This document shows positions 13,452 through 45,663 of a DNA stretch of 64,000 bases, one piece after another. The stretch is from the NCBI RefSeq assembly GCF_003473485.1, contig NC_053044.1, positions 198,501-262,500 on the forward strand. Reading direction: 5' to 3'. Within the stretch, counting starts at the first letter, position 1. Every line of letters begins with the position of its first letter. This DNA is from Medicago truncatula (Eukaryota > Streptophyta > Magnoliopsida > Fabales > Fabaceae). The notes under the pieces were generated by a model. It did no database searches, had not been told where the DNA came from, and saw only the letters and a list, made by a program, of their open reading frames with translations. A program made the translations under genes and the position numbers.

Positions 13452-14874
<1,423 letters not shown>

Positions 14875-19319: not shown

Positions 19320-20830
<1,511 letters not shown>

Positions 20831-26784: not shown

Positions 26785-28121
26785 TCAAGCATGTTGAATC
26801 ATACAATCAAATTGAAAGTTTCAAGTATCTTATGGGATTGGAAATTACAAAGTCCAACAAAAGTACATCATATTACTATTTGAAGATAGAGAAAGTCTTA
26901 GATGGAGACAACCCCAAATTAAAATAATTTGGACACTGTTGGGTATTTGAGTATTGACTTCATTGTTGCTAAAACAAATACTCATGTATGATGTTGGATA
27001 CGATGTTCCAACATCTTGGCACGGTTCAGTGTGTCTTGTTTGTGGCTTGGTTTTCGCGAACTTTATCTTTTTAAGGAAACCCCGACTTATTTCTTGTTCA
27101 CCAAGTAACATATTTTTGTCCAAAATCAGCTGGGTGATTTATTTCTAAAATATAGCAATATTTTAGGACTCATTGGCGGTGTGTTTGACGGTTCCTAAAG
27201 ATGTTCCTACTTTTTAGGAGTTGCTATATTTGTTACTATTTTGTTATGTGAGATCATTGAAGATTCTATGAAGATTTTATTCACGTGACTTGTGGTCCAA
27301 GAGACTTGTGTTTCCAGAAGAAATATATTTTTCAGATGGATATTTTTATTTGTGAAATATATTTTCAAAAGAGATTTTGGAAGATATATTTTTGAAAAAT
27401 ATTTGTTTCAATATATTTCTGAAAAAGAATATTTGATATAAATATATGTTTAGCCTATGACGAAAAAGCCCATGCTGCTGAATGGTTATATAAGGAAGAC
27501 TCAAACCCTAGTTTTATTCACCAATTCATTGTTATTGAATTGAGTCTTTTAGGGTTTCATTGTTAAGCCTTGAGCTTTATTTTGTGAGCCTCTCTTTGTG
27601 TCATATTGATGCACTGAGCAGGTCTTGTAGTTGAGTTGTATCAAAACCATCATTTTATATAAGAGAATAGATTTTAGGGTTTTGAGTCGTGTTTTTGCAT
27701 GTTTTTCTCTTATATCGTTTTGATGCAAGTCTAAGACTGTTTGTTAATGACTATTTATTGAGTTGTAACTCGTGTGCTACCCCAAAGCTTTGAAGCAAGG
27801 TAATAGTTTGTGTTTGAAGGTAACTTCAATATTTTGAGTTGTAATCGTAAAATCACAGGGGCTGTGATTGATTGAGGGAAGTGAGATGAGATCTCATATC
27901 TAGAAGTTCCTAGGTTGAAGTCAATACGGGTAGGTTCTAGGTCTAGGGTTGTAAACGAGGATGGGTTAACAAACCTTCCGTGGCTTTTACTTTTATGTGC
28001 CTTTTACTTTTTTGTCCTTTATATTTTCCTTAATGTGAATGTTTTCTGCTAGCTCGATGTTGAAATATCTTACTCAACATACTGTTTGTGTCTGATGTTG
28101 AAACATTGTATAAAACATCAG
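26785..28121 (+). mobile_element. Ty1/copia LTR-retrotransposon fossil: internal scrap plus probable LTR
   Basis: A short stretch at about 26785-26960 reads like the reverse-transcriptase/RNase H border of copia elements (LKYLMGLEITKS). From about 26995 a TGTTGGAT... sequence runs about 1.1 kb to ...AAAACATCA near 28121, with a TATATAAGGA promoter-like box at about 27487, as in an LTR. The element is clearly broken and most of its interior is gone. The age is old, judging from decay, but cannot be dated without a second LTR. Confidence 0.45.
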
Positions 28122-28429
28122 GAAGCTAACTCGTCAGAATTCCAGACACACTCACAAAACATAGAAAAATTTAAATGAGAATAAAATTAAATGATATTAA
28201 TTGATGTGACTGATTTATTTTTATTTTTATTTTTCCATCTTATATGAATGTGTCTAAATCTTTTTGATTTGAGGTTGTGACTATATTAGACTTTCTCTTG
28301 AAAACAATGCTTTTATCTCCATTTAATCATTGTCACTATCCAAATATGCTTTTATCTATAGATCCTAAACTATTTGGCATGTTGATTTAACTCATTCTTT
28401 TTAAGACTGATATCATATTTGTTGTCAAC

Positions 28430-28795
28430 AAACTCAGCCATTCCATTTAGATGCCATTTTATAGTAGCTAAGTTCTACACAAGAGCAGGGAATTCTTTTC
28501 CATGCTCACTCTTCCACTAAACTCACAACCTATGTATACCAATCAGGCCAAATGTAGTAGCTCTAGCTCAAGCTTTAACAGAGGCAGAATGTAGGTCAAT
28601 TGCTTGTCTCACAAGTGAACTTCTCTTGATCCAACCACTTAATTTATCTTTGAAATTCAATTGCCTCCCACTATATGGTGATCTATTATGATATGTTAGC
28701 AATTTCGATAGAATACATGATATAGCATACAATGAAATATCTAAAACATATTTGATAATGATTGCAACTTCATCAAGCAACATGCAATATTATCA
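28430..28795 (+). mobile_element. Ty1/copia fossil, RNase H region
   Basis: Plus-strand sequence keeps the RNase H signature of copia polyproteins (ALTEAECRSIACLTSELL, FNCLPLYGD). Only this C-terminal scrap is present, without LTRs, and it is broken. It belongs to the duplicated unit, so it predates the 8.7-kb duplication. The open frame on the opposite strand here is an antisense shadow. Confidence 0.6.
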
Positions 28796-29047
28796 GTAGA
28801 GGTAAGCAACATGTCAAATATCATATTTTGTAACAATCATCTAAGTCCAACAATTTCTCAAGCTTCTCGTAGGGTTCTAATTTTCTGCACTATCCAAAAA
28901 GAAAAAACATCCCAATAAAGCAAAATGAAACATAGAATACACATGTGCCTATTACTAGTTGGTGCGATCCATGTAAATATCAAATACCAAAACAACCTGA
29001 AACATCATGTCTCATTCATCATCAAAGTGGAGAGGATCGATAAGTTA

Positions 29048-30995
29048 TTAAACGTAATAGTCAATCACACGAAACATTGTGACTTTTAGCACATCCGGCG
29101 TCTTATTGATCAGCTCGAACACACAATAATCTCCATGAGACAGATTGTTGCCCCTTAGAAATATAGGAAATCCCCTTGATATTATCATTGCTGTTGATGA
29201 TGATTTGGCATCATGCATTGCACATGAAACTTCCCACTGCTTTCCGTGAGAATTTTGGAGCTTTATAGGAACATTTGGATTCAGATGCTTTGAAGCAAAA
29301 TCAGCATTAACATACTGCACATTAAATGAGATATTAATTAAAGTGGCAACATAAATAAATAACTCAACATTTGCTTTAAAGTAAAATCCTCACCACATAA
29401 TTTCCCTTAAGAATTTTGGAACAAAAATAAGGGTTTTTTGGATTAAATTCTTTGGCAGCTTCCTCTGCTCTTTTAGAAGCATGATTGTCACTTGTTTCAA
29501 CCTTGGACCTTTTCCTAGGACTATGAAACTTTGTTTTTGTTTCTCCATTTGTACTTTGAGTTTTGAATGGATAGCAAATCTCAATAGAAGTTGCATCAAA
29601 TATAAAGACACTAAACTTTGAATCCCCTTCATATTTGAAACACAGGAAGGAACCATACCCTATAGAATAGTATTCTGCAAACTGTTGCCATTTGTTGCAA
29701 AAGTAAACGTCATTGCCGCATTTCTTCAGTTTCATTTCCCAATCACAACCATCGGGAACAGTAATTGTAGCAACATTCTTGAGTTCATTCCCAAATCTTT
29801 TTATAAATTCATCTGGAATTCTCTACAGTGATAACAGTTCATCCGTTATAGTATAGGACCAAATTTTAGAGCAGGGCTGACACATTTGAGATTTACATAA
29901 TTGGTTTGCTTCTATTTCTCCTAGTTTCACTTTTCTTCAATTTGTTCAAAATCAATTTTTGTCGCCATTGAACCAAACGAAGATAAGTAGACTTAGTAGA
30001 AAAAAGAAGGATAAACCTTAAACAGAATGGATCATACCAAATGTCAAAATTAAATCGAATCATGTAAAAGAGTCACAAAGCATTTCAAATAGATTCCCTA
30101 AACAATCGTAAAGAGACTTTCGAGGAAGCACAATTTATCATTTTATAACTAATATTATAAGATAATATTACATGCATATGTAAAAGCACAAAACAAGCTA
30201 CCCACAATTCACAAATTAAACGTCACGGTTTCTAGTCATCACCTTGAAACCACTGAGACAAAGACAAAGACAAACCCAAAAAGATTAAATATTTTTCATG
30301 CTTTTTTTCTTACAAGGGATTTTTTTTATTACAACCATTGAAGTATTTAGCAGAAGCATAATACAAAGAATGAATTATTTGAAGTTGAGATTTAAAGTTT
30401 TCTACTACAAACATGAATTTTAGTCTTGAATTGACTCTTAAGGGAATGTAATGAAACATAAGTCTCTTCTGATTCAACTATGGGAATGAAATCAAACATA
30501 AGTTAATGTAGTTTGTAGAGACAAAAACTCCAAATTCTAGCTTCATGTTAAAAACACATGAACAAATGTCAAAATCAATTTCACATCTCCAAAATCAATT
30601 TTGCCTTATCCAAAAGTGAAACCAAACATACACTAAACTAACTTAAGAAAAGATTAAAAATCAATTTTTACAACCTTAGAATGAAAGAAACAATAAACAG
30701 AACAAGTGATCAACATGACAAAGAGACTTTCAGCACATTTAATGATTTTATAAAATTAATAATAACATTTGATTGACATGCATGCATGCATAATAGTACA
30801 AAACAAGCCAGAAAAAAGCACTAGTATTTGAGACATAAACATATATAGGCAGAAAAACAACTCAAAAGAAAGAGACAAAAATAAACATACTAATTTAGTG
30901 TCATGAATGGCTGAGGGAAGGATGGCTTTCATAAAATGTTTAGAATCCTTCTCCGCCACCGGTGGCCGGACAGAGCTTCTCCGGCGAGCCTGCAT
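29048..30995 (-). CDS. REM-type transcription factor with two B3 domains (gene D)
   Basis: Three phase-0 exons on the minus strand: 30995-30891, 29822-29394 and 29314-29048, giving 266 residues. Exon 1 encodes MQARRRSSVRPP then KDSKHFMKAILPSAIHDTKL, the basic leader and first strand of B3-1. Exon 2 holds the rest of B3-1 (RIPDEFIKRFGNEL, VTVPDG, CYPFKT-type strand), a linker with PRKRSKVE (possible nuclear signal) and the first strand of B3-2. Exon 3 completes B3-2 (NADFASKHL, GDYCVFELI, VTMFRVIDY). It is closest to gene E, then to the second half of genes A and C. Intron 1 is about 1.07 kb. The acceptor of exon 2 is CTACAG-type (TAG) where most paralogs have CAG. An apparently identical copy, D', lies 8,706 bases to the right. 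Confidence 0.82.
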
Positions 30996-31286
30996 ATTGT
31001 TGCAATTTTGTAAAAAGTGTTCAAAGTTTACTTCATATTCTAAATATATGTTATTTATTTTTGAGTTAAATATCTTTTGATCATGTAAATATACCAATTT
31101 TTTATTTTAATGAACTTTTAGTCCCTCAAAACTTTTCATCTTCATTTTTTGACGTTCATTTTAAGTAAACTCATATATAGAATTCACATTTTTGAATGAA
31201 TTTTTTGCAGAAAAATTTATAATATTATAATATTCTCTCCAAAAGAATAATTTTTTTTTAATAAAATATGATTTTTTATATTTTTT

Positions 31287-32146
31287 AGGCTTAATTATTA
31301 AAATTGACCTTGTAATATATGCGAAATCGAAAAACGATCCTGTAAAATAAAAAACACATATTATAACCCTGTAATTTGGGATTCTTATTATTTTTTTACC
31401 ATAAAATATAGTTGAAGTCCAAAAAATTCTTGGAGGTTGAATTTTTTCATAGTTTTTTTCAAACATGTTTAGTACGTTAAAACATGACTTTACACAAAAA
31501 TTTAAATTTTTTCAACTAAGGACGAATTGATTATGAATTTTTAATGTGTCAAAAACACAAAAAACAAAATAATGATAACTCCAACCTAAAATCAAATTTT
31601 GAGCTCATTGTTTGACAAAGACATCTATAGAAATACATAAAAAGGATCTGCAAAAATTTGTAGCATTTCAAAAATGTTTCCATATTTTTTATTTTTCAAC
31701 CAAAACGTGCGAAATTGCAATTTTGATCCGAGTGCATACTCATGGGTCAAATTTTGTTCTCTAATTTTGTAGGCATGGTTATAACATCACAAGAAACTTC
31801 ACCTTTAAATTTTGGAGATTTTAAACGAGACAAAAATTAATTCTGAATTGTTTAATAAATTCATCCTTAGTCGGAAAAATCTATTTTTTCGTGTAACACC
31901 GTGTTTTAACATCCTAAAGATGACTTTTCTTTTTAAAAAAAAAAAAACATCCTAAAGATGGTTGGAAAAAAAATCATGAAAAAATTCAATCTCTAGATAA
32001 CTTTTTTGGACCACGAGTTTCTTATAGAGTCAAAAATAAGAAGAATTTCAAATTGCAAGGTTAAAATATCTATTTTTTATTTTACAATGTCATTTTTCAG
32101 ACATCACGTATTTTACAGAGTCAATTTAAACAATTAACCCTATTTT
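31287..32146. mobile_element. Long fold-back (inverted-repeat) element of about 860 bases
   Basis: The ends invert onto each other: TTAATTATTAAAATTGACCT on the left and the inverse of TCAATTTAAACAATTAACCC on the right. Pairing continues inward through TGTAAAATA / TATTTTACA, and the middle has a second inverted pair around ACTAAGGACGAATT / CATCCTTAGTCGG. No coding. Likely a non-autonomous DNA transposon with very long terminal repeats (MULE-like by shape only). Confidence 0.55.
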
Positions 32147-32955
32147 TTAAGATTAATTTCATATTTAACTAAAAAATTCTAATTTATTTTAGGAAAGAAT
32201 GATCGAAAGTGGTGATTAAAAATTTAATATATATTAAAAATCGAAGAAATTTTTTCAAAGGCCTAAAACAAAATGTTAATATATTTATGCAGCTTGAAAA
32301 TATATTTAACCTTTTATTTATTATATATAAAGAATAAAGAAAAATCAACTAGTATAATGTGATAGTGACGGGACGAGACCTGCAAAGGCAAAGACACAAA
32401 CTGACAAAAATAAGATTTTCTCTTCTTCTATTTTTGACATGATCTTTCGATTATGATTGATCTAATGAAAAATAAATTAAAAAAAAATAAGAAGAAAGGA
32501 GAGGAGAGGAGTATAAAAACGAGGGAAGAAGAAAAAAAAGATTTTAAGAAACGAAAAACGTGACCTTTTATTTTGTCTAACAATAAAATTGAGTGTCACG
32601 TTTTTTTTGTTGGACTTTTTCTTATAACATTCATTCATTTTATAATGGAAAGTGAAATGGTAATGGTTGGAGTTCGAACATCAGACACTCTACTTTTTCA
32701 CAATTAAAATAAACGTGTTACTTGATAATAAAAAAGAAAGTAATTTTATAAAAAAAAAAAAAAGACATTTCAATTATAGACGAGGTTTGATTAGGACATG
32801 ACTCACGATGAATTATTGTTTAAATTTAATTGAAAGAGATATCAATATTTAATTCTAATACATTTAAGAAATCTGTATATACCAAACTTTCCAATTCTAT
32901 AGATAGATAACATGCTCTCGAAGTTAGTCTCTATGAACCCAAATTATATCATTAA

Positions 32956-33187
32956 GGGTGTATTTGGATGGAGGGTTTAGGAGGGGAGGTTTAGTTTTCA
33001 TTTTTAAATTACGGACATTATGAAATGTTTTTTAAAAAGTTAACATATTAACATAATAAACAATCTTATAACACTTCAATCATACTTGATTTATTTTAGA
33101 AAAACATGTTACATAGTCCGTAATTTAAAAAAGAAAAGTAAATTCTCCCCTCCCTTCTCCTCCTAAACCCTCCATCCAAACAGACCC
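32956..33187. mobile_element. Tourist-type (PIF/Harbinger) MITE
   Basis: Long, nearly perfect inverted ends (GGGTGTATTTGGATGGAGGG and the inverse of CCCTCCATCCAAACAGACCC) extend through GTTTAGGAGG. The element is bounded by TAA on both sides (32953-32955 and 33188-33190), the expected 3-bp target duplication. Even the interior (AAATTACGGAC / GTCCGTAATTT) is inverted, so the whole 232 bases could fold into one hairpin. Confidence 0.85.
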
Positions 33188-33429
33188 TAAATGGTATAAT
33201 CGAAGGAATTAGGAATGGTGAAATTGGTTATGGATGAATTTTCAAAGTACATATTTTAAAGTTGAAGGTCGCTTTAGTACACATAAAACCAAACTTTTAG
33301 TCAACATTTTTTTTAATGATAAATGTTGTGATTATAGATTCTCTGTTATAACTTGCTCATCTTACTAATTTTTTTATGTAGATTGCATCATTATAGCTAG
33401 TCTTAATCCATTGGTGATGAAGGCAACAA

Positions 33430-33620
33430 ATTAAACATGTTGAATTATATAATCATATTGAAAATCTCAAGGATCCTGTGGGATTCTAAATTGCAAAGTT
33501 AAACAAAAGTACATTCTATCACTGTTGGAAGACAATGATTTTATTCTAGTTAATCATCGTCTCAATCCAAAGATCCTTATTTAGACTCCATGGCAGTGGA
33601 ACCGACCGTCCATAGAACAT
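33430..33620 (+). mobile_element. Probable Ty1/copia fossil scrap
   Basis: It shares words with the copia scrap at 26785-26960 (CATGTTGAAT.ATA.AATCA, GTGGGATT..AAATT, AACAAAAGTACAT) and is even more decayed. It is broken, has no ends and cannot be dated. Family assignment is by similarity to the other scrap only. Confidence 0.35.
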
Positions 33621-33995
33621 AAATCCTAAATATTTTGAGGATGCATACCGGTATAAGAGCCATTGACCGTCACAAGAATGCAGTTCGGTTGGTGATATGA
33701 GAGACATCAAAGGCGTACTACTAGAAGGTTCAGGGTTCGAACCCTAAAAACTAATATGGAAGGCAACATGGCATGTTGATTTTTAGGCCTGTCATCATAG
33801 CCATTTCATTTACATGTCACTGACTACATTAGTACCTAAGTTCTAATTCTACACTGCTTCAAGGTCGAAAAAGCAAAGACATCCTATATAAGCAATATAA
33901 AACAGAATACAAAGTGCCTATTACATTACTTGTTGGTGCAATGCATTGAAATTATCAAATACCAAAACATCAAAGTAGAGAGGATACATAAGTTG

Positions 33996-36203
33996 TTAAT
34001 CGCCATAGTCAGCCGCACGAAACATTGTGACTTTTAGCACCAACGGATTATTCTTGATCAGCTCAAACACACAATAATCTCCATGTGACAGATTATTGTC
34101 CCTTTGAAATATTGAAAATCCCCTCGTTATTTTCATTGCTGATGACGAATTGGCGTCATGCAATATGCCAAAAACTTCCCACTGCTCACCATGAGAAGTT
34201 TGGATCTTTATAGGAACATTTGGCTTTAGATACTTTGAAGCAAAATCAGCATTAACATACTGCACATTAAATGAGATATCAATTAAAGTGGCAACATAAA
34301 TAAATAACTCAACATTTGCTTTAAAGTAAAATTCTCACCACATATTTTCTCTTAAGAATTTTGGAACAAAAGTAAGGGTTTTTTGGATTGAATTCCTTGG
34401 CAGCTTCCTCTGATCTTTTAGAAGCATGATTGTCACTTGTTTCAACCTTGGACCTTTTCCTAGGACTATGACACTTTGTGTTTGTTTCTCCATTAATACT
34501 TTGAGTTTTGAATGGATAGCAAATCTCAACAGAAGTTACATCAAATATAACAACATTAAACTTTGAATCCCCTTCATATTTGAAACGCAAGAAGGAACCA
34601 TACCCTATAGAATAGTATTCTGCAAACTGTTGCCATTTGTTGCAAAAGTAAACGTCGTTGCCGCATTTCTTCAGTTCCATTTCCCAATCACAGCCATCGG
34701 GAACAGTAATTGTAGCAACATTCTTGAGTTCATTCCCAAATCTTTTTATAAATCCATCTGGAATTCTCTGCAGTGATAACAACTCATCTGTTATACGTGT
34801 ATGAGATTGTCACAATTGGTTCACTTCTATGACTCTTGGTATCACTTTTGTTCAATATAATTCATTCAAAATCAGCTCGCTTTTCAACAATTTGTTCAAA
34901 ATCAATTTTTGGCGCCATAGAACCAAACGAAGATAATTCAACTTTGTAGGAAAAAGAAGGATAAACCTCAAGCAGAACTGGTCATCATCTTGAATAGAGA
35001 GAGAGCACCAAATGTCAAAATCCAATCACGCAAAATTGTCACAAAGCATTTCAATAAACAATTATAAAGAGACTTTCGAGAAAGCACATTTTATCATTTT
35101 GTAATTCATAATATAATATTTGACATGCATATATAAAATCATAAAATTACAAGCTAACCACAGTTCACTCCTTCACATAGAGGTGAAAAGCAGCAGCGTT
35201 TCCGTAACTTCAATATCACAGTTTCGAGTCATCAATTTCAAAACACAAAGACGATTCCAAAAAGATTAAATATTTTTCGTGCTTTTCTTCTCAAGAAGGA
35301 TTTATTTGATTACAATCATAGAAGTATTTAGCGCAGAAACGTATTACAAAGAATGAATTCTACCTTAAAGTTGAGATTTTAAGTATTGCACTCCAAGTGT
35401 GATTTTAGTCTCAGATTTATTGTTGAATTCACTCTTAAGGGAGTTTAATGAATTCAACTAAGTATGTACTATGCAATCACTTTCAATTCAACTATGGGAA
35501 TGTAATCAAACATAAGTTATTGTAGTTTGTAGTGACAAAAGCTCTAAATTCTAGCTTCAGATTGATAACAATTCTAGAAGCAAAATCAATTTTACTCGAG
35601 CACAAGCAAGGGGGGTTGGATAGCTCAACTGGTTTGAGCTAAGAGTTAAGTAGTCGGAAGCCTAGGATTCAAGTCCTCACAAGGAAATAAAAAAACTAAC
35701 ACAACAATTAACATACTAACATTTATCATTAAAAAAATGTCAAAATCAATTTCACATCTCTAGAATAAATTTTGCCACATCCAAAACTAAACCAAACATA
35801 AACTAAACTAAACTCACAATAAAAGTTTCAAAATCAATTTTTACAACCTTAGTATGAAAGAAACACTTAACAGAACAAGTGATCGACATGCAAACAGACA
35901 CAAAAGAACAAAAACAATGACAAAGAGACTTTGTAGCACATGAACATTTAAATATCATTTTATAAAATTAATAATAACATTTGATTGACATGCATGCATA
36001 ATAGTACAAAACAAGCCAGAAAAAACACTAGTATTTGAGACATAAACATATATAGGCAGAAAAACAAGTCAAAAAGAAAGAGATAAAAATAAACATACTA
36101 TTTGAGTGTCATGAATGGGTGAGGGAAGGATGGCTTTCATAAAATGTTTAGAATCTTTCTCCGGCGCCGGTGGCCGGACAGAGCTTCTCCGGCGAGCCTG
36201 CAT
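33996..36203 (-). CDS. REM-type transcription factor with two B3 domains (gene E)
   Basis: Three phase-0 exons on the minus strand: 36203-36099, 34767-34339 and 34259-33996, giving 265 residues. Exon 1 encodes MQARRRSSVRPPAPEKD then SKHFMKAILPSPIHDTQI. Exon 2 holds the B3-1 body (RIPDGFIKRFGNEL, ITVPDGCDWEM), the PRKRSKVE basic linker and the start of B3-2. Exon 3 completes B3-2 (NADFASKYL, GDYCVFELIKN, VTMFRAADYGD). It is a tandem paralog of gene D in the same unit; the introns are alignable but diverged, so D and E split well before the 8.7-kb duplication. Intron 1 is about 1.33 kb and contains a SINE-like insertion. Apparently intact. Confidence 0.82.
35619..35700 (+). mobile_element. tRNA-like SINE fragment in intron 1 of gene E
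   Basis: GGTTGGATAGCTCAACTGG looks like pol III box A and GGATTCAAGTCCT like box B, about 45 bases apart. There is no acceptor stem or cloverleaf that would make it a real tRNA. The same sequence is present in the duplicate at about 44322-44403. Confidence 0.5.
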
Positions 36204-36845
36204 TGTTTGTTCACTTGTGCAAATAATAATAAAGTGAAATGAGTTTCAAAGGTTACTTCACATTCTAAATATATAGTATTTTATTTATTATTCTATAAAG
36301 AAAAGTCAATTATATAGTATTTTATTTATCAATGAATCTTCTATTTTTTATACTATTTTTGACATAATCTTTTGATTGATATACTCAATAAAAAATAATT
36401 AAAAGAAGAAGAAAGTAAAGGAGTATAGAAATGAGGAAGAAGAAGAAAAAAGATTGAATTCAATTCAGACTCTCACAATTTTTTAAGGGGTTAATTAAGT
36501 CTTTGACATAAAATACTTCAATTAATCTCTGAAATTTTCATACTATAGACAAATTAGTCTTTAACTTAATATATCAGAGAAAATAATTTGTCCCCAATAT
36601 AAAAATGACATGATTAATTTGAGTTTATTTTTTTTGTTAAGGACTGTTTTGACCCACAAGAATTGAATCTACATTGAAGAATAAATGGATAAGGTAATTC
36701 TTTTTTGACTTGAACAAAATATAGTATCACATTTTTTTCAGGCCTTTTTTCCTTATAACATTCATTTTATAGAAGTCATTATTATGTGGTATTTATATTT
36801 ATAGGTAGAATGGCTCAGTCAAACTCATGTGATAATTATTCCTTC

Positions 36846-36875
36846 TTTTTCTATGTTTCACAAAACATAGAAAAA
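36846..36875. repeat. Perfect hairpin at the tandem-duplication junction
   Basis: TTTTTCTATGTTT (36846-36858) and AAACATAGAAAAA (36863-36875) are exact inverse arms around a 4-base loop CACA. The 8 bases 36850-36857 belong to neither unit, and the right arm is the start of unit 2. The filler therefore looks copied from the unit start by snap-back priming. Confidence 0.85.
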
Positions 36876-37753
36876 TTTAAATGAGAATAAAATTAAATGA
36901 TATTAATTGATGTGACTGATTTATTTTTATTTTTATTTTTCCATCTTATATGAATGTGTCTAAATCTTTTTGATTTGAGGTTGTGACTATATTAGACTTT
37001 CTCTTGAAAACAATGCTTTTATCTCCATTTAATCATTGTCACTATCCAAATATGCTTTTATCTATAGATCCTAAACTATTTGGCATGTTGATTTAACTCA
37101 TTCTTTTTAAGACTGATATCATATTTGTTGTCAACAAACTCAGCCATTCCATTTAGATGCCATTTTATAGTAGCTAAGTTCTACACAAGAGCAGGGAATT
37201 CTTTTCCATGCTCACTCTTCCACTAAACTCACAACCTATGTATACCAATCAGGCCAAATGTAGTAGCTCTAGCTCAAGCTTTAACAGAGGCAGAATGTAG
37301 GTCAATTGCTTGTCTCACAAGTGAACTTCTCTTGATCCAACCACTTAATTTATCTTTGAAATTCAATTGCCTCCCACTATATGGTGATCTATTATGATAT
37401 GTTAGCAATTTCGATAGAATACATGATATAGCATACAATGAAATATCTAAAACATATTTGATAATGATTGCAACTTCATCAAGCAACATGCAATATTATC
37501 AGTAGAGGTAAGCAACATGTCAAATATCATATTTTGTAACAATCATCTAAGTCCAACAATTTCTCAAGCTTCTCGTAGGGTTCTAATTTTCTGCACTATC
37601 CAAAAAGAAAAAACATCCCAATAAAGCAAAATGAAACATAGAATACACATGTGCCTATTACTAGTTGGTGCGATCCATGTAAATATCAAATACCAAAACA
37701 ACCTGAAACATCATGTCTCATTCATCATCAAAGTGGAGAGGATCGATAAGTTA

Positions 37754-39701
37754 TTAAACGTAATAGTCAATCACACGAAACATTGTGACTTTTAGCACAT
37801 CCGGCGTCTTATTGATCAGCTCGAACACACAATAATCTCCATGAGACAGATTGTTGCCCCTTAGAAATATAGGAAATCCCCTTGATATTATCATTGCTGT
37901 TGATGATGATTTGGCATCATGCATTGCACATGAAACTTCCCACTGCTTTCCGTGAGAATTTTGGAGCTTTATAGGAACATTTGGATTCAGATGCTTTGAA
38001 GCAAAATCAGCATTAACATACTGCACATTAAATGAGATATTAATTAAAGTGGCAACATAAATAAATAACTCAACATTTGCTTTAAAGTAAAATCCTCACC
38101 ACATAATTTCCCTTAAGAATTTTGGAACAAAAATAAGGGTTTTTTGGATTAAATTCTTTGGCAGCTTCCTCTGCTCTTTTAGAAGCATGATTGTCACTTG
38201 TTTCAACCTTGGACCTTTTCCTAGGACTATGAAACTTTGTTTTTGTTTCTCCATTTGTACTTTGAGTTTTGAATGGATAGCAAATCTCAATAGAAGTTGC
38301 ATCAAATATAAAGACACTAAACTTTGAATCCCCTTCATATTTGAAACACAGGAAGGAACCATACCCTATAGAATAGTATTCTGCAAACTGTTGCCATTTG
38401 TTGCAAAAGTAAACGTCATTGCCGCATTTCTTCAGTTTCATTTCCCAATCACAACCATCGGGAACAGTAATTGTAGCAACATTCTTGAGTTCATTCCCAA
38501 ATCTTTTTATAAATTCATCTGGAATTCTCTACAGTGATAACAGTTCATCCGTTATAGTATAGGACCAAATTTTAGAGCAGGGCTGACACATTTGAGATTT
38601 ACATAATTGGTTTGCTTCTATTTCTCCTAGTTTCACTTTTCTTCAATTTGTTCAAAATCAATTTTTGTCGCCATTGAACCAAACGAAGATAAGTAGACTT
38701 AGTAGAAAAAAGAAGGATAAACCTTAAACAGAATGGATCATACCAAATGTCAAAATTAAATCGAATCATGTAAAAGAGTCACAAAGCATTTCAAATAGAT
38801 TCCCTAAACAATCGTAAAGAGACTTTCGAGGAAGCACAATTTATCATTTTATAACTAATATTATAAGATAATATTACATGCATATGTAAAAGCACAAAAC
38901 AAGCTACCCACAATTCACAAATTAAACGTCACGGTTTCTAGTCATCACCTTGAAACCACTGAGACAAAGACAAAGACAAACCCAAAAAGATTAAATATTT
39001 TTCATGCTTTTTTTCTTACAAGGGATTTTTTTTATTACAACCATTGAAGTATTTAGCAGAAGCATAATACAAAGAATGAATTATTTGAAGTTGAGATTTA
39101 AAGTTTTCTACTACAAACATGAATTTTAGTCTTGAATTGACTCTTAAGGGAATGTAATGAAACATAAGTCTCTTCTGATTCAACTATGGGAATGAAATCA
39201 AACATAAGTTAATGTAGTTTGTAGAGACAAAAACTCCAAATTCTAGCTTCATGTTAAAAACACATGAACAAATGTCAAAATCAATTTCACATCTCCAAAA
39301 TCAATTTTGCCTTATCCAAAAGTGAAACCAAACATACACTAAACTAACTTAAGAAAAGATTAAAAATCAATTTTTACAACCTTAGAATGAAAGAAACAAT
39401 AAACAGAACAAGTGATCAACATGACAAAGAGACTTTCAGCACATTTAATGATTTTATAAAATTAATAATAACATTTGATTGACATGCATGCATGCATAAT
39501 AGTACAAAACAAGCCAGAAAAAAGCACTAGTATTTGAGACATAAACATATATAGGCAGAAAAACAACTCAAAAGAAAGAGACAAAAATAAACATACTAAT
39601 TTAGTGTCATGAATGGCTGAGGGAAGGATGGCTTTCATAAAATGTTTAGAATCCTTCTCCGCCACCGGTGGCCGGACAGAGCTTCTCCGGCGAGCCTGCA
39701 T
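37754..39701 (-). CDS. Two-B3 REM transcription factor, tandem copy D'
   Basis: Exons 39701-39597, 38528-38100 and 38020-37754 on the minus strand, 266 residues, with the same translation as gene D throughout. Domains, basic linker and TAG acceptor are all as in gene D. Because the duplicated unit includes at least 1 kb upstream of exon 1, this copy keeps the same proximal promoter and could double the dosage of D. Reads of D and D' would not be separable by sequence. Confidence 0.8.
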
Positions 39702-39992
39702 ATTGTTGCAATTTTGTAAAAAGTGTTCAAAGTTTACTTCATATTCTAAATATATGTTATTTATTTTTGAGTTAAATATCTTTTGATCATGTAAATATAC
39801 CAATTTTTTATTTTAATGAACTTTTAGTCCCTCAAAACTTTTCATCTTCATTTTTTGACGTTCATTTTAAGTAAACTCATATATAGAATTCACATTTTTG
39901 AATGAATTTTTTGCAGAAAAATTTATAATATTATAATATTCTCTCCAAAAGAATAATTTTTTTTTAATAAAATATGATTTTTTATATTTTTT

Positions 39993-40849
39993 AGGCTTAA
40001 TTATTAAAATTGACCTTGTAATATATGCGAAATCGAAAAACGATCCTGTAAAATAAAAAACACATATTATAACCCTGTAATTTGGGATTCTTATTATTTT
40101 TTTACCATAAAATATAGTTGAAGTCCAAAAAATTCTTGGAGGTTGAATTTTTTCATAGTTTTTTTCAAACATGTTTAGTACGTTAAAACATGACTTTACA
40201 CAAAAATTTAAATTTTTTCAACTAAGGACGAATTGATTATGAATTTTTAATGTGTCAAAAACACAAAAAACAAAATAATGATAACTCCAACCTAAAATCA
40301 AATTTTGAGCTCATTGTTTGACAAAGACATCTATAGAAATACATAAAAAGGATCTGCAAAAATTTGTAGCATTTCAAAAATGTTTCCATATTTTTTATTT
40401 TTCAACCAAAACGTGCGAAATTGCAATTTTGATCCGAGTGCATACTCATGGGTCAAATTTTGTTCTCTAATTTTGTAGGCATGGTTATAACATCACAAGA
40501 AACTTCACCTTTAAATTTTGGAGATTTTAAACGAGACAAAAATTAATTCTGAATTGTTTAATAAATTCATCCTTAGTCGGAAAAATCTATTTTTTCGTGT
40601 AACACCGTGTTTTAACATCCTAAAGATGACTTTTCTTTTTAAAAAAAAAAAACATCCTAAAGATGGTTGGAAAAAAAATCATGAAAAAATTCAATCTCTA
40701 GATAACTTTTTTGGACCACGAGTTTCTTATAGAGTCAAAAATAAGAAGAATTTCAAATTGCAAGGTTAAAATATCTATTTTTTATTTTACAATGTCATTT
40801 TTCAGACATCACGTATTTTACAGAGTCAATTTAAACAATTAACCCTATT
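39993..40849. mobile_element. Long fold-back element, copy in unit 2
   Basis: Copy of the element at 31287-32146, carried along by the duplication rather than transposed; one A shorter in the internal A run. Confidence 0.55.
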
Positions 40850-41658
40850 TTTTAAGATTAATTTCATATTTAACTAAAAAATTCTAATTTATTTTAGGAA
40901 AGAATGATCGAAAGTGGTGATTAAAAATTTAATATATATTAAAAATCGAAGAAATTTTTTCAAAGGCCTAAAACAAAATGTTAATATATTTATGCAGCTT
41001 GAAAATATATTTAACCTTTTATTTATTATATATAAAGAATAAAGAAAAATCAACTAGTATAATGTGATAGTGACGGGACGAGACCTGCAAAGGCAAAGAC
41101 ACAAACTGACAAAAATAAGATTTTCTCTTCTTCTATTTTTGACATGATCTTTCGATTATGATTGATCTAATGAAAAATAAATTAAAAAAAATAAGAAGAA
41201 AGGAGAGGAGAGGAGTATAAAAACGAGGGAAGAAGAAAAAAAAGATTTTAAGAAACGAAAAACGTGACCTTTTATTTTGTCTAACAATAAAATTGAGTGT
41301 CACGTTTTTTTTGTTGGACTTTTTCTTATAACATTCATTCATTTTATAATGGAAAGTGAAATGGTAATGGTTGGAGTTCGAACATCAGACACTCTACTTT
41401 TTCACAATTAAAATAAACGTGTTACTTGATAATAAAAAAGAAAGTAATTTTATAAAAAAAAAAAAAGACATTTCAATTATAGACGAGGTTTGATTAGGAC
41501 ATGACTCACGATGAATTATTGTTTAAATTTAATTGAAAGAGATATCAATATTTAATTCTAATACATTTAAGAAATCTGTATATACCAAACTTTCCAATTC
41601 TATAGATAGATAACATGCTCTCGAAGTTAGTCTCTATGAACCCAAATTATATCATTAA

Positions 41659-41890
41659 GGGTGTATTTGGATGGAGGGTTTAGGAGGGGAGGTTTAGTTT
41701 TCATTTTTAAATTACGGACATTATGAAATGTTTTTTAAAAAGTTAACATATTAACATAATAAACAATCTTATAACACTTCAATCATACTTGATTTATTTT
41801 AGAAAAACATGTTACATAGTCCGTAATTTAAAAAAGAAAAGTAAATTCTCCCCTCCCTTCTCCTCCTAAACCCTCCATCCAAACAGACCC
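41659..41890. mobile_element. Tourist-type MITE, copy in unit 2
   Basis: Copy of 32956-33187 with the same TAA flanks, duplicated passively with the 8.7-kb unit. Confidence 0.85.
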
Positions 41891-42698
41891 TAAATGGTAT
41901 AATCGAAGGAATTAGGAATGGTGAAATTGGTTATGGATGAATTTTCAAAGTACATATTTTAAAGTTGAAGGTCGCTTTAGTACACATAAAACCAAACTTT
42001 TAGTCAACATTTTTTTTAATGATAAATGTTGTGATTATAGATTCTCTGTTATAACTTGCTCATCTTACTAATTTTTTTATGTAGATTGCATCATTATAGC
42101 TAGTCTTAATCCATTGGTGATGAAGGCAACAAATTAAACATGTTGAATTATATAATCATATTGAAAATCTCAAGGATCCTGTGGGATTCTAAATTGCAAA
42201 GTTAAACAAAAGTACATTCTATCACTGTTGGAAGACAATGATTTTATTCTAGTTAATCATCGTCTCAATCCAAAGATCCTTATTTAGACTCCATGGCAGT
42301 GGAACCGACCGTCCATAGAACATAAATCCTAAATATTTTGAGGATGCATACCGGTATAAGAGCCATTGACCGTCACAAGAATGCAGTTCGGTTGGTGATA
42401 TGAGAGACATCAAAGGCGTACTACTAGAAGGTTCAGGGTTCGAACCCTAAAAACTAATATGGAAGGCAACATGGCATGTTGATTTTTAGGCCTGTCATCA
42501 TAGCCATTTCATTTACATGTCACTGACTACATTAGTACCTAAGTTCTAATTCTACACTGCTTCAAGGTCGAAAAAGCAAAGACATCCTATATAAGCAATA
42601 TAAAACAGAATACAAAGTGCCTATTACATTACTTGTTGGTGCAATGCATTGAAATTATCAAATACCAAAACATCAAAGTAGAGAGGATACATAAGTTG

Positions 42699-44906
42699 TT
42701 AATCGCCATAGTCAGCCGCACGAAACATTGTGACTTTTAGCACCAACGGATTATTCTTGATCAGCTCAAACACACAATAATCTCCATGTGACAGATTATT
42801 GTCCCTTTGAAATATTGAAAATCCCCTCGTTATTTTCATTGCTGATGACGAATTGGCGTCATGCAATATGCCAAAAACTTCCCACTGCTCACCATGAGAA
42901 GTTTGGATCTTTATAGGAACATTTGGCTTTAGATACTTTGAAGCAAAATCAGCATTAACATACTGCACATTAAATGAGATATCAATTAAAGTGGCAACAT
43001 AAATAAATAACTCAACATTTGCTTTAAAGTAAAATTCTCACCACATATTTTCTCTTAAGAATTTTGGAACAAAAGTAAGGGTTTTTTGGATTGAATTCCT
43101 TGGCAGCTTCCTCTGATCTTTTAGAAGCATGATTGTCACTTGTTTCAACCTTGGACCTTTTCCTAGGACTATGACACTTTGTGTTTGTTTCTCCATTAAT
43201 ACTTTGAGTTTTGAATGGATAGCAAATCTCAACAGAAGTTACATCAAATATAACAACATTAAACTTTGAATCCCCTTCATATTTGAAACGCAAGAAGGAA
43301 CCATACCCTATAGAATAGTATTCTGCAAACTGTTGCCATTTGTTGCAAAAGTAAACGTCGTTGCCGCATTTCTTCAGTTCCATTTCCCAATCACAGCCAT
43401 CGGGAACAGTAATTGTAGCAACATTCTTGAGTTCATTCCCAAATCTTTTTATAAATCCATCTGGAATTCTCTGCAGTGATAACAACTCATCTGTTATACG
43501 TGTATGAGATTGTCACAATTGGTTCACTTCTATGACTCTTGGTATCACTTTTGTTCAATATAATTCATTCAAAATCAGCTCGCTTTTCAACAATTTGTTC
43601 AAAATCAATTTTTGGCGCCATAGAACCAAACGAAGATAATTCAACTTTGTAGGAAAAAGAAGGATAAACCTCAAGCAGAACTGGTCATCATCTTGAATAG
43701 AGAGAGAGCACCAAATGTCAAAATCCAATCACGCAAAATTGTCACAAAGCATTTCAATAAACAATTATAAAGAGACTTTCGAGAAAGCACATTTTATCAT
43801 TTTGTAATTCATAATATAATATTTGACATGCATATATAAAATCATAAAATTACAAGCTAACCACAGTTCACTCCTTCACATAGAGGTGAAAAGCAGCAGC
43901 GTTTCCGTAACTTCAATATCACAGTTTCGAGTCATCAATTTCAAAACACAAAGACGATTCCAAAAAGATTAAATATTTTTCGTGCTTTTCTTCTCAAGAA
44001 GGATTTATTTGATTACAATCATAGAAGTATTTAGCGCAGAAACGTATTACAAAGAATGAATTCTACCTTAAAGTTGAGATTTTAAGTATTGCACTCCAAG
44101 TGTGATTTTAGTCTCAGATTTATTGTTGAATTCACTCTTAAGGGAGTTTAATGAATTCAACTAAGTATGTACTATGCAATCACTTTCAATTCAACTATGG
44201 GAATGTAATCAAACATAAGTTATTGTAGTTTGTAGTGACAAAAGCTCTAAATTCTAGCTTCAGATTGATAACAATTCTAGAAGCAAAATCAATTTTACTC
44301 GAGCACAAGCAAGGGGGGTTGGATAGCTCAACTGGTTTGAGCTAAGAGTTAAGTAGTCGGAAGCCTAGGATTCAAGTCCTCACAAGGAAATAAAAAAACT
44401 AACACAACAATTAACATACTAACATTTATCATTAAAAAAATGTCAAAATCAATTTCACATCTCTAGAATAAATTTTGCCACATCCAAAACTAAACCAAAC
44501 ATAAACTAAACTAAACTCACAATAAAAGTTTCAAAATCAATTTTTACAACCTTAGTATGAAAGAAACACTTAACAGAACAAGTGATCGACATGCAAACAG
44601 ACACAAAAGAACAAAAACAATGACAAAGAGACTTTGTAGCACATGAACATTTAAATATCATTTTATAAAATTAATAATAACATTTGATTGACATGCATGC
44701 ATAATAGTACAAAACAAGCCAGAAAAAACACTAGTATTTGAGACATAAACATATATAGGCAGAAAAACAAGTCAAAAAGAAAGAGATAAAAATAAACATA
44801 CTATTTGAGTGTCATGAATGGGTGAGGGAAGGATGGCTTTCATAAAATGTTTAGAATCTTTCTCCGGCGCCGGTGGCCGGACAGAGCTTCTCCGGCGAGC
44901 CTGCAT
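42699..44906 (-). CDS. Two-B3 REM transcription factor, tandem copy E'
   Basis: Exons 44906-44802, 43470-43042 and 42962-42699 on the minus strand, 265 residues, same translation as gene E. Its upstream flank (44907-45552) is the full flank present before gene F. The promoter of E in unit 1 is cut about 650 bases upstream by the duplication junction, so E and E' may differ in distal control although their coding sequences agree. Confidence 0.8.
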
Positions 44907-45663
44907 TGTTTGTTCACTTGTGCAAATAATAATAAAGTGAAATGAGTTTCAAAGGTTACTTCACATTCTAAATATATAGTATTTTATTTATTATTCTATA
45001 AAGAAAAGTCAATTATATAGTATTTTATTTATCAATGAATCTTCTATTTTTTATACTATTTTTGACATAATCTTTTGATTGATATACTCAATAAAAAATA
45101 ATTAAAAGAAGAAGAAAGTAAAGGAGTATAGAAATGAGGAAGAAGAAGAAAAAAGATTGAATTCAATTCAGACTCTCACAATTTTTTAAGGGGTTAATTA
45201 AGTCTTTGACATAAAATACTTCAATTAATCTCTGAAATTTTCATACTATAGACAAATTAGTCTTTAACTTAATATATCAGAGAAAATAATTTGTCCCCAA
45301 TATAAAAATGACATGATTAATTTGAGTTTATTTTTTTTGTTAAGGACTGTTTTGACCCACAAGAATTGAATCTACATTGAAGAATAAATGGATAAGGTAA
45401 TTCTTTTTTGACTTGAACAAAATATAGTATCACATTTTTTTCAGGCCTTTTTTCCTTATAACATTCATTTTATAGAAGTCATTATTATGTGGTATTTATA
45501 TTTATAGGTAGAATGGCTCAGTCAAACTCATGTGATAATTATTCCTTCTTTTACTTCTACCTATAAGTATGACTTGAACAATGCTGCTTCAAGAACCAAA
45601 TGAGCAAAAGCATTCCATTAAAGCCTAACAATGCCATAGTTGGTGAATGTAAATTGTAAAATA

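Follow-up and report, generated by a model that had tools for sequence, protein, structure and literature searches.

A block of 8.7 kb with two adjacent, intact REM-type B3 genes, here called D and E, stands twice in head-to-tail order in the Medicago truncatula assembly. From its sequence, this arrangement is very probably a real and recent tandem segmental duplication of the one block, formed by end joining. The preliminary description had allowed for a very young duplication, for homogenisation and for an assembly artefact, and had leaned towards recent copy-number growth; this view is supported by outer breakpoints that lack homology and by an 8-bp inverted filler between the copies. The window, to which all coordinates refer unless a contig is named, is the whole 64-kb stretch that was analysed (C3:198501-262500).

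The two units and their genes

Self-BLAST of the window and a base-by-base walk delimited two units in direct orientation (Table 1). The walk revealed 0 substitutions over 8695 aligned bases and exactly three differences, each corresponding to one A fewer in unit 2. In the self-BLAST, the same pair was by far the best repeat, with 0 mismatches and 3 gaps, confirming the earlier statement that the units are identical apart from three one-base differences in A runs. The variable runs end at 31947, 32487 and 32763 in unit 1, where they have lengths of A13, A9 and A14. They represent three of the unit's four A/T runs of 9 or more, while the other seven of the ten A/T runs of 8 or more are of equal length in both units. 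The three differences are clustered within 817 bp because the longest A runs sit there, and they are compatible with true slippage and with consensus error alike. No N letters occur in the window, and chance is excluded as the origin of the match.

The other window repeats above 1 kb found by self-BLAST are far more diverged, with 82% identity for D versus E and 86-87% for 22.9-24.6 versus 46.1-47.7 kb and for 10.1-11.2 versus 15.9-17.0 kb. Some short repeats (0.3-0.65 kb) near 13-22 kb reach 95-99%. An ORF with ribosomal S4/S9 domains (20381-20830) has an inverted partial copy at 13515-13931, about 7 kb away and 98.6% identical; nearby pieces are 94.6% identical in inverted and 97.0% in direct orientation, so the rearrangements here may be fairly young.

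Table 1. Features of the duplicated region, in window coordinates.
Feature	Position	Strand	Remarks
Probable solo LTR (TG...CA)	26937..28144	.	GACAC at 26932-26936 and 28145-28149; ends inferred from TG/CA and GACAC
Remainder of older dispersed element hosting the LTR	28150..28297	.	inverted self-similarity; unit 2 starts inside
Unit 1 of direct tandem duplication	28152..36849	.	8698 bp; self-comparison and walk
Gene D (REM-like, two B3 domains, 266 aa)	29048..30995	-	exons 30891-30995, 29394-29822, 29048-29314
MITE-like dispersed element between D and E	31285..32149	.	inverted ends; copied in unit 2
Abundant hairpin-type MITE-like element between D and E	32950..33193	.	copied in unit 2
Gene E (REM-like, two B3 domains, 265 aa)	33996..36203	-	exons 36099-36203, 34339-34767, 33996-34259
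Perfect inverted repeat over the seam	36846..36875	.	arms 36846-36858 and 36863-36875; loop CACA
8-bp filler TCTATGTT at the junction	36850..36857	.	inverted copy of AACATAGA; sequence walk
Unit 2 of direct tandem duplication	36858..45552	.	8695 bp; self-comparison and walk
Gene D'	37754..39701	-	exons 39597-39701, 38100-38528, 37754-38020; coding sequence identical to D
Gene E'	42699..44906	-	exons 44802-44906, 43042-43470, 42699-42962; coding sequence identical to E

The gene models were built from sequence, with splice sites picked by eye, using GT/AG signals and the D/E comparison for D. Both D and E have three exons and GT/AG introns and are open and complete. As the preliminary description had it, the four B3 genes form two indistinguishable pairs. 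A Pfam search identified two stretches of the B3 domain (PF02362) in D (E = 9.9e-27) and two in E (3.1e-25); B3 was the sole Pfam family at E <= 0.01 in these models, with no AP2, ARF or other partner domain. A TAG inside a B3 match of D raised the possibility of a pseudogene, which was rejected: this TAG is a splice acceptor, E has CAG at the same place, and D reads through to 266 aa. The two PDB matches of E, VRN1 (PDB 4I1K, E = 2.9e-14) and At1g16640 (PDB 1YEL, E = 4.9e-6), are B3 proteins counted as REM members in PMC2688026. Their similarity to E is distant and does not point to a common target or function.

Tandem clustering, a trait of REM genes, was found at the locus. The window holds at least 14 B3 matches among the matches listed, 8 of them inside the two units, and further B3 ORFs lie at 22.6-24.5 and 46.0-46.4 kb, outside these 14. 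Genome-wide, 151 B3 matches were counted, with 150 of 583 candidates scored. The REM cluster extends from about 9 kb to about 48 kb in the window, since blastn at 1e-20 found nothing that matches the window in the 9.5 kb on each side.

D and E also share a stretch at 29288-29824 (about 34233-34770 in E) which includes intron 2 and is 96% identical, against 89% overall, a value reached by none of 2000 shuffles. Their dN is 0.078 and their dS 0.142 (NG86), the latter unevenly spread, rising from 0.09 in exons 1-2 to 0.25 in exon 3. The patch is most simply read as the trace of an older, partial gene conversion involving the two genes; selection confined to exon 2 would leave the identity of intron 2 unexplained. 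D and E group together in a tree (98/98 support) built on a 338-bp piece that falls almost wholly within the conversion-like patch, a possible bias.

The seam and the breakpoints

The sequence on the left of unit 1 reads ...CCAGACACAC|TCACAAAACATAGAAAAA and that on the right of unit 2 reads ...CCTTCTTTT|ACTTCTACC, while between the units it reads ...CCTTCTTTT-TCTATGTT-TCACAAAACATAGAAAAA. Base-by-base comparison of the outer breakpoints, ACACAC|TCACAA and CTTTT|ACTTC, revealed no homology between them. The 8-bp spacer that joins unit 1 to unit 2 reverse-complements AACATAGA, which occupies unit bases 7-14 (28158-28165, and 36864-36871 in the second copy) and so lies 6 bp inside the unit. Together with its neighbours, the filler forms a perfect inverted repeat, TTTTTCTATGTTT-CACA-AAACATAGAAAAA, with 13 bp per arm. 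The junction strand folds as a 13-bp hairpin at -10.4 kcal/mol, compared with a shuffle mean of -2.1 (z = -6.5), and none of 200 shuffles folded equally well. In 20,000 trials with random 8-mers of the same composition, a direct or inverted match near either break arose by chance in 0.56% (20 nt), 0.85% (30 nt) or 1.6% (50 nt) of cases.

Two marks of end joining were found at this locus, namely direct head-to-tail copies whose outer breakpoints lack homology, and inserted bases copied from beside the break (8/8 bases, chance 0.56-1.6%). The seam fits end joining with a templated insertion of the polymerase-theta-like kind and does not fit unequal crossing-over. Such crossing-over between repeats could have drawn on the REM paralogues and dispersed elements around the block, but the recombined repeat expected at its seam was looked for and is absent, the outer breakpoints are without homology, and extra bases are present at the seam; this origin was rejected as extremely improbable.

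In the mechanism that we propose, polymerase-theta-like end joining would have linked, in head-to-tail order, two DNA ends that came either from sister chromatids or from a replication fork that broke and restarted. The TTTT with which the block closes on the right could have paired with the AAAA at 28166-28169 of the other end. Copying of 28165 to 28158 would then have extended the paired end by exactly TCTATGTT, and the extended end would have been released before being sealed to the start of the unit. One junction is insufficient to prove which polymerase acted, and we infer polymerase theta from this seam alone.

The two breaks differ in their surroundings. The solo LTR, inserted in the older dispersed element, ends 7 bp left of the unit-1 breakpoint, while the DNA at the right break matches nothing elsewhere, as judged from the search with the right-edge piece. 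Of two LTR relatives elsewhere, one is followed by TGGTATCAGAGC, which we take to be a tRNA primer-binding site, and the other is not. The LTR may have inserted before or after the duplication. A transposon carrying both genes was considered, given that a unit edge lies in a dispersed element, and was rejected: the element appears to continue left of the breakpoint, split by the solo LTR, the right edge matches nothing besides the two units, and the 8-bp spacer, being absent from the outer edges, is no target-site duplication. Within the units, the MITE-like element at 31285-32149 is spread over all eight large contigs and also forms part of a tandem array on C7 described below.

Copy number, age and competing explanations

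Genome searches covered 429.9 Mb in 42 contigs, nearly all of it in eight contigs longer than 40 Mb. As would suit Medicago truncatula, 159 matches to the late-nodulin (NCR-type) family were counted, with 150 of 1197 candidates scored. The full 101-bp junction matched at one place in the genome (15/15 candidates scored). The right-edge piece, on which the copy count mainly relies, matched only the two expected places (2/2 candidates scored). A 1151-bp internal piece gave two full-length 100% matches, which are the units, its other matches being a short dispersed element (40/577 candidates scored), and the matches of the left-edge piece comprised the two units and dispersed repeats (40/196 candidates scored). 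No third copy of the unit was found by these piecewise searches with the right-edge, internal and left-edge pieces, at the numbers of candidates scored. A search with the whole unit was swamped by the dispersed element (39/3364 candidates scored, with the units themselves unlisted) and is uninformative on copy number.

Three repeats from the same assembly, chosen from earlier matches rather than sampled, were compared with the duplication. At C4:6226839-6235089, NCR-type genes are arrayed with a 2244-bp period in four near-identical copies, with 2 mismatches in 6007 bp. The tandem array at C7:27149524-27268964 repeats every 8.5 kb or so and gave at least 12 matches, and neighbours that were read are 99.7-99.9% identical; the stretch examined had no Rfam match at the gathering score and contained no more than three ORFs of at least 120 aa. 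A repeat pair on C4, 45 kb apart, is 98.9% identical. Elsewhere in the assembly, too, there are thus young tandem copies, or else errors of the same sort.

With 0 substitutions in 8695 bp and an assumed rate of 7e-9 per site and generation, the 95% upper bound on the age of the duplication is 24,645 generations, and assumed rates of 1.5e-8 to 5e-9 give bounds of 11,501 to 34,503 generations, all presuming no exchange between the units. As conversion between tandem copies is plausible here, the lack of substitutions dates the event only if such exchange did not take place.

This bears on an explanation in which the duplication is older and its units have stayed identical through gene conversion or through unequal crossing-over that took place repeatedly between them. 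The 96% patch that D and E share over a distance of about 5 kb makes it probable that neighbours in the cluster have exchanged sequence, which speaks for homogenisation. However, the identity of the units is complete in introns, in intergenic DNA, in the two dispersed elements and to both edges, and homogenisation would need to span all 8.7 kb with both edges included, whereas the old D/E patch is merely partial, as gene conversion usually is. The filler palindrome, moreover, is still perfect, with 13/13 paired. We regard homogenisation of an old pair as improbable.

Slightly less credit still is given to an assembly artefact, in the form of a single real unit written twice, of split haplotypes or of a chimeric molecule. 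The three differences between the units all concern the length of homopolymers, which is where a long-read consensus usually errs, and fold-back chimeras can form during library preparation. Nevertheless, the window has no gap, and the outer flanks are unrepeated beside the other unit. The seam links two non-homologous points through a filler that is absent from the outer edges, and so was presumably in the reads; an overlap join or haplotypes placed side by side are not expected to yield such a filler, while end-joining repair would. The sequenced line, which we assume is probably a selfing inbred, also counts against this explanation. The structure of the seam thus argues against an assembly artefact.

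Consequences and relation to known systems

The duplication would double the gene dosage of D and E, and it would have touched the upstream DNA of one gene. The boundary of the unit lies 646 bp upstream of the E start codon. Beyond this point E has lost its native upstream DNA and meets the filler and then the downstream region of D', while E' retains its native upstream DNA. For D and D', the unit includes all upstream DNA as far as the neighbouring E or E', and native upstream DNA is kept. With the upstream DNA of D, D' and E' intact, only E has a changed upstream context. E and E' would consequently be identical predicted proteins with partly different upstream regions.

A more specific proposal, which we advance tentatively and hold to be possible rather than probable, is that the duplication is confined to this line or to its closest kin, is at most a few thousand generations old, and produced in one step an E/E' pair whose upstream sequences differ from -646 onwards. 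If this is true, any divergence between E and E' in expression, or in siRNA or DNA-methylation targeting, could be read as an effect of the rearrangement itself and not of later mutations. Two identical 8.7-kb units make unequal exchange easy, so the event may seed further copy-number change. Four Arabidopsis REM proteins reportedly recruit RNA polymerase IV and direct DNA methylation (PMC12270911). By analogy with such proteins, REM dosage could have wide effects, which is hypothetical for D and E.

The closest mechanistic parallel comes from C. elegans, as described in PMC7368036. There, BRCA1-pathway mutants acquire tandem duplications that span 1 kb to 1 Mb, most of them measuring some 10-20 kb. 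Their junctions show microhomology and now and then an insertion, the duplications are suppressed when polymerase theta is lost, and templated insertions are given as a hallmark of this polymerase. The likeness to the present locus lies in the head-to-tail order, the size of about 10 kb, and the microhomology and occasional inserted bases at the seam. The difference is that those duplications arose in mutants, whereas here the locus is a natural one in a plant, with the enzyme inferred from one seam. The same text describes no tandem duplication in wild-type C. elegans in 240 generations, which counts against the end-joining reading.

Within the species, gene-level tandem copy-number change has been described for an NBS-LRR gene of M. 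truncatula HM034 (PMC5369179). That case concerns another family, and the duplication (or deletion in HM101) is PacBio-supported, whereas the present one is known from the assembly alone. Among the titles listed from the literature on Medicago truncatula B3/REM genes, none was on this locus.

The locus is a well-preserved example of a known process, a gain of gene copies of an ordinary kind and not very unusual. Tandem duplication is an established way for REM clusters to grow, but in our judgement single events are usually too old to read. What is new here is the intact seam, which shows one route, probably end joining with a templated filler rather than unequal crossing-over. Romanel 2009 (PMC2688026) and the study describing the pepper G8 group (PMC10949715) deal with lineage-specific tandem expansion of REM genes, in which clusters grow, as here, by (recent) tandem duplication; compared with these, the present locus offers a single event with its seam intact, 0 substitutions, and two genes duplicated as one block.
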